Shown in pieces: positions 1 through 4,200 of a stretch of 32,037 nt of DNA. The DNA is taken from NCBI GenBank assembly GCA_026989015.1, contig JALSKD010000014.1, positions 1 to 32,037 of the forward strand. The letters are read 5' to 3'. The notes beneath the pieces are model-generated. The model was given only the letters and a program-made list of their open reading frames with translations. It was not told the origin of the DNA and searched no databases. A program made the translations under genes and the position numbers. How positions within the stretch are numbered: position 1 is the first letter of the stretch; each line of letters starts with the position of its first letter. The DNA is from Gammaproteobacteria bacterium (GTDB lineage: Bacteria > Pseudomonadota > Gammaproteobacteria > GCA-001735895).

Positions 1-93
1 TAGGCCGCCTACTCAAGCGCCGTCTAGATGGTGTTCATATCTTTCGCAGGCCACCTTCACCGATCGGAACCTTTGTTGGCCGATCGGCTACAC

Positions 94-127
94 GATAAAT
101 CGGCGCCATGGAAGGCGCCGATTTATC
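94..127. repeat. Perfect 14-bp inverted repeat upstream of the integrase
   Basis: The arms GATAAATCGGCGCC (94-107) and GGCGCCGATTTATC (114-127) are perfect reverse complements around a 6-nt loop, ATGGAA. The hairpin ends two bases before the TATAAT box and occupies the place where a -35 element would be expected. It could be a recombination-associated structure, an operator, or a terminator-like hairpin for transcripts arriving from the left; it has no T-tract on either strand. The repeat is read directly; the role is inference. Confidence 0.8.
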
Positions 128-129
128 AG

Positions 130-135
130 TATAAT
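130..135 (+). promoter_or_regulatory. Candidate -10 box for the integrase
   Basis: A perfect TATAAT lies at 130-135, about 87 bp before the integrase ATG. The hexamer 17 bp upstream (107-112, CATGGA) does not resemble TTGACA and falls inside the 94-127 hairpin. If this is a sigma-70 promoter, it would be weak, extended, or activator-dependent. The transcript leader would contain all of the 136-201 nested inverted repeat. Confidence 0.4.
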
Positions 136-201
136 AGACAGCACCCTGAAGATAGCACGATAGACTGCACGCTGTCTATCGTGCTATTTTATGTGCTGTC
201 T
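136..201. repeat. Nested pair of perfect inverted repeats in the integrase leader
   Basis: The outer arms AGACAGCAC (136-144) and GTGCTGTCT (193-201) enclose the inner arms ATAGCACGATAGAC (152-165) and GTCTATCGTGCTAT (174-187), which have an 8-nt loop. Both pairs match perfectly. The arms share sub-words: TAGACAGCAC at 135-144 recurs as TAGACTGCAC at 161-170, and AGCAC/GTGCT recurs throughout. The element could fold as a long hairpin with a symmetric internal loop, in the 5' leader or as extruded single-stranded DNA. Function is unknown; it sits 20 bp before the integrase start. Confidence 0.8.
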
Positions 202-221
202 CATCATTTTCCGCTTCTCCG

Positions 222-1571
222 ATGTTTGCTCAGTCCCTGCCCCATTCGAATTGGCAGCGTTATCTGGATGTTCTTGTGCGCACGGGTGTTCCTGAGCGTT
301 ATCGGCAGTGGTATGTGCGTCATGTCGAGCGATTGATGCACGCTTTCCCTGGCCGGAAGCTTTCCGCCTTGCGTCGTGAGGAGCTTGAGGCTTATCTTGC
401 CGGTTTTCGAGATGAACCGGATGCGCAGTCCTGGTTGTTGCGGCAACGGGTGGATGCCTTGCGTCTGTTGCTGGTGGATTTGCTGAAATTGCCGGAAGCG
501 AAACAGGTGGCGTGGGATCGTTTCTGGACTCAGCCTGAGACGCCGCAGGATGGCGGCGGCGAGCGCAAAGCCGTTGAGCAGGGTACTCGCGTAGCTGAGC
601 ACTTTTTGCCGCCCGACTGGATGCAGTGGCAGCAGCAGATGCAACGGTCCTTGCGTTCAAGCCGATATGCCCTCCGTACCGAGCAGGCCTATATGGACTG
701 GCTGCGCCGGTTTGCTCTGTTCTGTGCGCACAATGACAAATCGCCGGACAGCGGTCAAGCCAGGGGGTTTATCGAATACCTCGTGATCGAACGCAAGGTG
801 TCGATCAATACTCAGAAGCAGGCGCTGAACGCGCTGGCCTATTTCTTTCAACACATTCTCGAACAGCCATTGGATCTGGGGGAATTCCGCCGTTCCAGCA
901 AGCCGCGCCGCTTGCCGGTGGTGCTGTCGGTGAAGGAGGTTCAGCGACTGCTGGAAGCACTGGAGGGCACGCACCATCTGATGGCAACTCTGATGTACGG
1001 CAGCGGCCTGCGCTTGATGGAGGTATTGCGGCTGCGGGTGCAGGATGTGGATTTCGACCGCAGGATCATCACGGTACGCCGCGCAAAGGGGGACAAGGAC
1101 CGAATCGTGCCCTTGCCCGAGCGTTGTATCGAGCCGTTGCAGGCGCACCTGGCCGAGCGCAGGTTACAGCACCTGGAAGATGTGCGCGACGGTCAGGGCA
1201 GCGTCCACCTGCCGGACGCACTGGCGCGCAAATACCCCCATGCGGCGGAGTCCTGGCCCTGGCAGTTCATCTTCGCCTCGGCCAGCCTGTCGCAGGACCC
1301 GGTCAGCGGTGAATTGCGGCGTCATCACCTGCACGAGACCAGCCTGCAGCGCGCCATTCGAAAGGCCGGGCGCAACGCCGGCATTACCAAACCGGTGAGC
1401 AGTCATGCGCTGCGCCATTCCTTTGCGACGCATCTGCTGGAGTCGGGACAGGATATCCGCACGGTGCAGGAACTGCTGGGCCATGCCAATGTGTCCACCA
1501 CGATGATCTATACCCATGTGATGAACCGCCCTGGGGTACTGCCGGTGACCAGCCCGGCCGATCGCCTGTAG
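222..1571 (+). CDS. intI: Integron integrase IntI (site-specific tyrosine recombinase)
   Basis: Catalyses attI x attC cassette recombination. This is a 449-aa tyrosine recombinase. The SAM-like core-binding domain is at about 135-225 and the catalytic domain at about 230-440. Likely catalytic residues are Arg264 (YGSGLRLME), Lys289 or Lys292, His395 and Arg398 ([10 protein letters not shown]), His421 (LLGH) and Tyr430 (TTMIYTHV). Residues about 336-372 (KYPHAAESW...RRHHLHE) form the IntI-specific insertion that reads folded attC DNA, separating it from XerC/XerD. The first ~125 residues extend beyond the ~320-340 aa of the class 1-3 enzymes; such N-terminal extensions occur in some chromosomal integrases. 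No clear Shine-Dalgarno precedes the ATG at 222, so the start is less certain than the identity. All catalytic residues are present, so it should be active. No attI or attC core is visible in the 221 bp upstream. Confidence 0.93.
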
Positions 1572-3101: not shown

Positions 3102-4200
3102 TTACAATCCACTCTTGAGACTGGCTTCGATGAAGGGGTCCAGATTGCCGTCGAGCACGGCCTGGGTGTTGCCGGTTTCGTAGCCGGTGCGCAGATCCTT
3201 GATGCGGGACTGGTCCAGCACATAGGAACGGATCTGGCTGCCCCAGCCGATGTCGGATTTGCTGTCTTCCACCGCCTGTGAGGCTTCGTTGCGTTTCTGC
3301 AATTCGAATTCGTAGAGCTTGGCCTTGAGCTGCTTCATCGCGGTGGCCTTGTTCTTGTGCTGGGAGCGGTCGTTCTGACACTGCACCACGATACCGGTCG
3401 GCTCGTGGGTGATGCGCACCGCCGATTCGGTGCGGTTGACGTGCTGGCCGCCGGCGCCGCTGGCGCGGTAGACATCGATGCGCAGGTCGGAAGGGTCGAT
3501 CTCGATGTCGATGTCGTCGTCCACTTCCGGCGACACGAAGGCAGAAGCAAAAGAGGTGTGGCGGCGGTTGCCCGAGTCGAAGGGTGATTTGCGCACCAGC
3601 CGATGGACGCCGGTCTCGGTACGCAGCCAGCCGTAGGCGTGGTCCCCCTCGAACTTGACGGTGGCGCTCTTGATGCCGGCCACTTCGCCCGGCGAGACTT
3701 CGATCAGCTCGGTCTTGAAGCCCTTGCGCTCGCCCCAGCGCAGGTACATGCGCAGCAGCATTTCGGCCCAGTCCTGGGCCTCGGTGCCGCCGGAGCCGGC
3801 CTGGATGTCGAGATAGGCGTTGCGGTCGTCCATCTCGCCGGAGAACATGCGACGGAATTCAAGGTCGGAAACCGTCTGCTCGACCCGGTCCAGGTCCTGC
3901 TGTACCGATTCGATGGTGGAGTCGTCCTCTTCCATTTCCGCCAGTTCGAGCAGTTCGGCGGCGTCGTTGACCTGTTGTTCGGCCTGATCCAGGCCGTCGA
4001 CTATGGCTTCGAGACGGGCGCGGTCCTTGCCCAGCTGCTGGGCGCGCTCAGGGTCGTTCCACACATCGGGATCTTCCAGTTCCAGACGGATTTCTTCGAG
4101 CTCTTCCTTCTTGGCGGCATAGTCAAAGATACCCCCTCAGCGCTTCGATGCGCTGGCGGAGGTCGTCGATCTGCTGCTTGAGGGGGTTGGTTTCGATCAT
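3102..4200 (-). CDS. prfB: Peptide chain release factor 2 (programmed +1 frameshift)
   Basis: Reads UGA and UAA stop codons and triggers peptide release. Translation starts at the ATG at 4200 ([10 protein letters not shown]...), reaches CTT TGA at codons 25-26, and must shift +1 to continue as [11 protein letters not shown]. With the shift the product is 365 aa, the same length as E. coli RF2. The SPF stop-recognition tripeptide is at 205-207 and the GGQ peptidyl-hydrolysis motif at 250-252, both at the E. coli positions. An automatic caller would start the gene at a GTG near 4064 and lose 45 residues. No strong Shine-Dalgarno precedes the ATG. It is followed directly by lysS. Confidence 0.98.
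4122..4137 (-). promoter_or_regulatory. RF2 autoregulatory frameshift site
   Basis: On the minus strand the site reads AGG GGG TAT CTT TGA C, identical to the E. coli prfB site. It has the internal Shine-Dalgarno-like AGGGGG (4137-4132), the slippery CTT (4128-4126), and the in-frame TGA (4125-4123) followed by C. Low RF2 lets the ribosome pause at TGA and slip +1, giving full-length RF2; high RF2 terminates after 25 codons. The mechanism is established for this family; the sequence match is seen directly. Confidence 0.97.

Follow-up and report, generated by a model that had tools for sequence, protein, structure and literature searches.

A candidate attI site with a palindromic accessory element beside a long integron integrase, and its copies at the heads of other cassette arrays

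The window analysed here, a 32,037-bp stretch that is contig C14 of a draft gammaproteobacterial genome from its first base, carries near its 5′ end a gene for an integron integrase (intI, 222..1571, plus strand), and the question raised by this locus is what the perfect inverted repeats crowded between the contig end and that gene represent. A first-pass annotation of this DNA took them to be either a recombination element that folds or the binding element of a multi-site regulator, which pointed in the right direction but recognised neither an attI site nor a cassette border. We find that the repeats within positions 1–201 probably represent the attI of a chromosomal integron together with the start of the first cassette joined to it.

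Inverted repeats at the 5′ end of the contig

A repeat search of the window returned all three perfect inverted repeats that the first-pass annotation had described, at 94–107/114–127 (14 bp), 152–165/174–187 (14 bp) and 136–144/193–201 (9 bp), together with a fourth that it had overlooked (134–142/171–179, 9 bp). Against these four repeats of 9–14 bp within positions 1–300, dinucleotide shuffling of the same stretch gave a mean of 0.05 repeats of at least 9 bp; none of 500 shuffles held four, the longest shuffled repeat was 12 bp, and the two 14-bp repeats are the sole perfect inverted repeats of at least 12 bp (spacer of at most 60) across the 32-kb window. The annotation's contention that the repeats are not accidental is thus borne out by the shuffles, and the recurring words that it saw in their arms are real. 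That the repeats are an artefact of chance or of assembly can hardly be credited, even though the window begins at a contig end of a draft genome of 198 contigs, because the shuffles exclude chance, copies lie inside other contigs and also in a single-contig genome, and the flanking lysS and prfB genes are an 87% match to the same genus. The 87% identity of lysS/prfB also led us to reject contamination by a foreign contig.

Searching the genome with window positions 60–260, and with longer copies, splits the region into two independent repeats. One of these (128–201) recurs at C22:30034, C107:15223 and C132:14403, at none of which it adjoins an intI, and the other (minus-strand 1–127) recurs with 93–97% identity at C22:30100, C22:2506, C107:15904 and C120:1218. 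What had been described as one set of repeats exists, but as two separate features with a border at 127/126.

On sequence grounds, the feature nearer intI is identified as an attI site that occupies 127..195 on the minus strand and comprises, from 195 to 127, two integrase-type boxes in inverted orientation and a third that serves as the L box, followed by the crossover ACT^G (127/126). Accessory box 1 (TAGACAG, 172..178, minus strand), the outer half of the dyad, is followed after a 4-bp spacer by accessory box 2 (CAGTCTA, 161..167, minus strand) in inverted orientation, giving a dyad consensus of TAGRCWG-N4-CWGYCTA, and box 3, the attI L box (CTGTCTA, RYYYAAC-like, 135..141, minus strand), follows box 2 at 26 bp and precedes the crossover G by 8 bp. 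Box 1 holds a fixed position in 31 sites, and the spacing of box 3 is the same in all aligned copies. The dyad forms the core of an extended imperfect palindrome centred on 169.5 (143..196, arms 143–168 and 171–196), which contains the 152–165/174–187 repeat and shows covariation. In an alignment of this site and 30 further attI sites, conservation reaches only as far as the crossover, beyond which the cassettes differ among copies. The site is placed between intI (start 222) and the first cassette (start 126), with the array pointing away from intI, and most of the aligned sites show CTGTT as a GTTRRRY-type core (R box); the window copy has AT in place of TT, supplied by its first cassette.

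Two details of the earlier description apply less widely. The 9-bp outer repeat is present, but its 193..201 arm, an extra box word on the minus strand (AGACAGCAC), is peculiar to the window copy; C22, C107 and C132 lack it at the corresponding position. A TATAAT does stand at 132–137, but a promoter role for it is unsupported because it is not conserved at related sites; a promoter scan gave a single weak site, which lies on the minus strand, and we rejected TATAAT as a key promoter.

The second feature can be identified as the 5′ part of a gene-less cassette (here called E; 1..126, minus strand), which leaves the contig at position 1; the 5′ end of E is the complement of the R″ box in the cassette's own attC. 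All four copies of E begin exactly at GATAAATCGGCGCC, i.e. G^ATAAATCGG, and a diverged copy lies on C183. In the complete copy on C107, which stands between two cassettes and ends in GCCGCTCAGCTACACG^TTAGCC, the attC arms are ATTTATCGTGTAGC.GAGCGGC and GCCGCTC.GCTACACG^ATAAAT; this attC covers nearly the whole element, its bottom strand folds with z = −10.9, and it has the palindromic R″-L″...L′-R′ order ending at G^. Its R boxes read ATTTATC/GATAAAT instead of RYYYAAC/GTTRRRY, the core being GAT and not GTT, a single departure from consensus that is unusual for attC, and we therefore call E attC-like. No conserved open reading frame is visible in E by eye. In neighbouring cassettes on C22 the first bases are likewise complementary, by eye, to the cassette's own R″ box; since E has no gene between its 5′ end and R″, the two lie close together and, with seven further complementary bases, make the 34-bp hairpin at 94..127, in which the cassette 5′ end and the crossover G pair with the R″ box and its 7 preceding bp. 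The arms of this hairpin, which had been said to lack an attC core, hold a degenerate R′/R″ pair (GATAAAT/ATTTATC). That E is a repeat would explain why contigs break at this place. E and the attI leader are absent from the 40 other genomes of the window's family. We note that on C183 (L139:1235-1500) the diverged E-like cassette follows an attI-like stretch without the dyad, CGCGCACTCCATTATACT^GTTC, possibly an attI in decay or else a site of secondary insertion.

Copies of the attI site in the genome and its relatives

In the source genome, zero-mismatch matches to the dyad, searched as TAKRYWG-N4-MNKYCTA, occur only at the attI sites on C14, C22, C107 and C132. On C107, CTGTCTATTATACT^GTTATGC passes directly into another cassette (G^TTATGCATACAAGGAGGAAACATG) with a ribosome site and an ATG. 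Because the assembly is a draft, its arrays are broken at repeats. A search pattern in which box 1 and box 2 are separated by 4 bp, box 3 starts 26 bp after the start of box 2 and CTGTT follows box 3 after 5 bp, with up to three mismatches tolerated, listed 31 sites, spread over 16 of 194 Thiococcus-family genomes (reversed control, 1), and within the window's own order it found the four own sites only. Among positions outside the pattern, information is high at −10..−1, 18–21, 25, 44–45 and 47–48; it falls to background, about zero, upstream of −13 and past the core at +58, and the sequence beyond the crossover varies from site to site, as should be expected of a genuine attI. The closest named relatives of the integrase, at about 50% identity, are those of Thiocystis, Thiorhodococcus, Imhoffiella, Thiohalocapsa and Thiococcus; four of the five have the same boxes upstream of intI, Thiohalocapsa differs, and in Thiocystis and Thiorhodococcus the distance from box 3 to the crossover is off by one base.

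In G101, a closed genome of one 4.05-Mb contig, attI sites lie at 396620+, 435351−, 2501916− and 3868890+. The full long intI (3867423-3868772−) adjoins only the last of these; elsewhere this genome has a match to a shorter, different integrase (2840736) and a fragment (2777180). By a relaxed, simple heuristic finder, and not IntegronFinder, attC-like sites were found downstream of all four attI sites (reversed control, 0). Near the site, what two of the distal copies have in common with the copy next to intI is confined to the attI itself (69 and 78 bp, 94–96% identity); the third shares 228 bp with that copy, including the first 24 codons of intI. Four attI sites were counted in G066, three in G148, and two each in G125, G215, G207, G108, G064 and G154 (for G125 after removal of an overlapping match on the reverse strand). 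Remnants of intI adjoin the attI at L151 (by eye), L182, L191, L175, L179 and L224. Taken together, these comparisons identify the same attI at the head of further arrays, both here and in the genomes of relatives, without an adjoining intact intI of this type. Nowhere in the alignment were the arms lost without compensation; they covary. Further copies of the repeat do exist at other loci, as the annotation had allowed they might if its reading failed, but all stand at array heads, which supports an attI rather than refuting it.

Several individual loci deserve mention. The simple finder detected no attC at L228 (G125:C1:2021178) and in some short flanks; in the fetched flank of L228, whose attI core is GGT and not GTT, this may reflect an empty or dying site. 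The 5.7-Mb genome G148 has three attI sites (L175, L186 and L191), two of them with intI remnants, and gave no intI match at 1e-25. At L151:1500-2300 (Thiococcus, G066:C11) a second attI stands next to a short 5′ remnant of intI, and the first cassette resembles, by eye, a toxin–antitoxin pair.

The integrase and the reading of the dyad

The product of intI is a long-type integron integrase of 449 aa that scores 413.8 bits with TIGR02249 (curated cut-off 265) and has the tyrosine recombinase residues R264, H395, R398, H421 and Y430, invariant in 19 sequences. Ahead of the usual core-binding domain (residues ~131–216) is a duplicated, N-terminal core-binding (SAM-like) domain (~8–88 or 8–95); the N-extension aligns with the usual domain by hhalign (96.3%, E = 1.9e-9) and gives a weak Pfam SAM match. 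A structure model (mean pLDDT 82, pTM 0.57) contains two four-helix bundles, and the best PDB match is IntI4 (2A3V). The duplicated domain recurs across a broad set of long integrases (Chromatiaceae, Granulosicoccaceae, Thiotrichaceae and some deltaproteobacterial MAGs). Downstream, intI is followed by lysS and prfB on the opposite strand; the prfB reading frame (3102-4064) has an in-frame start only at GTG and matches its model from position 36, as expected from the programmed frameshift of release factor 2.

The dyad is most likely an accessory integrase-binding pair. We suggest that the integrase would bind the three attI boxes as double-stranded DNA, the inverted pair serving as an accessory landing site in the manner of DR1/DR2 of attI1, but inverted; that the extra N-terminal domain reads the dyad we offer as a hypothesis only.

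Covariation across the dyad is compatible with more than one way of reading it. In the 31 aligned sites the 25 pairs of the dyad score 0.276, compared with 0.159 ± 0.013 when shuffled (reached in 0/500 shuffles) and at most 0.150 when slid, counts that are inflated by relatedness among the sites; among 16 clusters, 52% of the outer nine pairs are Watson–Crick, against 32% when shuffled and 23–29% when slid. The outer arms are poorly conserved in sequence, yet complementary. This, together with the folds of the window copy (z of −7.5 and −8.2 relative to shuffles, one per strand), would favour a 50-bp imperfect palindrome that acts as folded DNA, a cruciform or single-stranded fold read by the integrase or a host factor as attC is. 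The mismatches are 60 GT and 61 AC, a parity showing that no single RNA strand carries the signal, which is in keeping with folded DNA; for lack of any GU-type strand bias, and of an Rfam family (nothing at gathering score, with sub-threshold miRNA hairpin matches only), we rejected an RNA structure. We nevertheless consider the folded-DNA reading unlikely. A two-fold symmetric, dimeric protein site with lineage-specific specificity would yield equal covariation and fits the data as well, the sequence of the inner boxes is strongly conserved, and fold energies vary widely from one attI copy to another. Two points lead us to prefer protein binding to folded DNA: the inner word is found again, unpaired, as the L box, and the attI sites already characterised act, and are recognised, as double strands (PMC4792948).

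A protein other than the integrase might also be at work: a distinct transcription factor, LexA-like or not, could repress intI with the dyad as its operator. The likely intI promoter and the dyad overlap, and SOS control of intI is common (PMC3108266). In long-integrase relatives (L040, L060, L037 and L048), E. coli-type LexA-like boxes, such as TACTGTATATATAAACAGTA in L040, occupy the place that the dyad has in the window and in Chromatiaceae. We regard such an operator as improbable, and with it the generic multi-site regulator of the first-pass annotation: the zero-mismatch dyads of the genome are confined to its four attI sites, three of them without intI, and the dyad is kept there at a constant 26 bp from the L box. 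The genome does have lexA, with a promoter motif (TTCTCGTTCTATTCTCG / CGAGAAGATAACGAGAA, by eye) that is unlike the dyad; on this ground and that of the genome-wide dyad pattern, a LexA operator was rejected. No LexA box, either CTGT-N8-ACAG or of the host's own type, was seen in 1–260, and the lack of an E. coli-type box agrees with a report that Chromatiaceae integrons are without LexA control (PMC3108266). Given that the dyad overlaps the likely promoter, the integrase itself, once bound there, may repress intI.

A possible single integrase for several arrays, and comparison with known integrons

Most likely, a single integrase would act in trans on several arrays that have an attI at the head. 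The simplest history would be that the entire platform was duplicated and most copies of intI were then lost, with the attI sites retained by selection or by gene conversion, two sources of attI identity that sequence alone cannot separate. As a possible, if tentative, model we propose a distributed integron, in which one long integrase with a doubled DNA-binding domain would insert and shuffle cassettes at dispersed attI sites from a shared pool, each site bearing a conserved palindromic accessory element whose covarying outer arms would be either read by the extra domain or folded into a DNA structure governing insertion. It is rather doubtful, though far from implausible, that the distal attI sites are instead relics of decayed integrons, CALINs with the leader kept, that are out of use. 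The intI remnants that adjoin several distal sites favour such relics, as does the general view of CALINs as degraded integrons (PMC9024848). Against them stand the G101 copies, 94–96% identical although their upstream flanks are unrecognisable (an identity that gene conversion could mimic), and the preservation of dyad and spacing in the diverged copies of G125 and G148.

In the literature searched, mostly outside subscription papers, we found no description of multiple attI sites served in trans, and the arrangement is apparently undescribed within that scope. Non-class-1 attI sites are poorly described and IntegronFinder does not scan for them (PMC9024848), and therefore most chromosomal arrays have heads that escape notice. 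For one integrase lineage a searchable attI definition is now available. The findings suggest that certain arrays without an integrase are functional outposts of a single enzyme and not wreckage, and they link an unusual domain of the integrase with an unusual, testable site architecture.

Set beside known systems, the window attI resembles attI1 of class 1 integrons in being a probable double-stranded insertion site next to intI with a G^TT crossover, an L box by the crossover, extra repeated boxes upstream and a length of about 65–70 bp. It differs in that its accessory boxes are an inverted pair with long arms, whereas attI1 has two direct repeats, DR1/DR2, upstream of L and R, which favour attI × attC recombination (PMC8946536); the box sequence is also unlike, boxes 2 and 3 are fixed at 26 bp, and there are several copies per genome. 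With attIA of Vibrio cholerae it shares a chromosomal setting between intI and the array, but attIA lacks accessory repeats (PMC8946536), the V. cholerae genome has one attI platform, and that system has a LexA box whereas none is seen at the window attI. Like CALINs, the arrays described here are remote from intI and would be mobilisable in trans; unlike CALINs, which are defined by attC only (PMC9024848), they keep a conserved attI at the head. The integrase, finally, has the integron integrase fold of V. cholerae IntI4 (2A3V), with 45% identity in structural alignment over about residues 141–449, but IntI4 has 320 residues and the window enzyme is ~130 residues longer at its N-terminus, where it carries the second core-binding-type domain.
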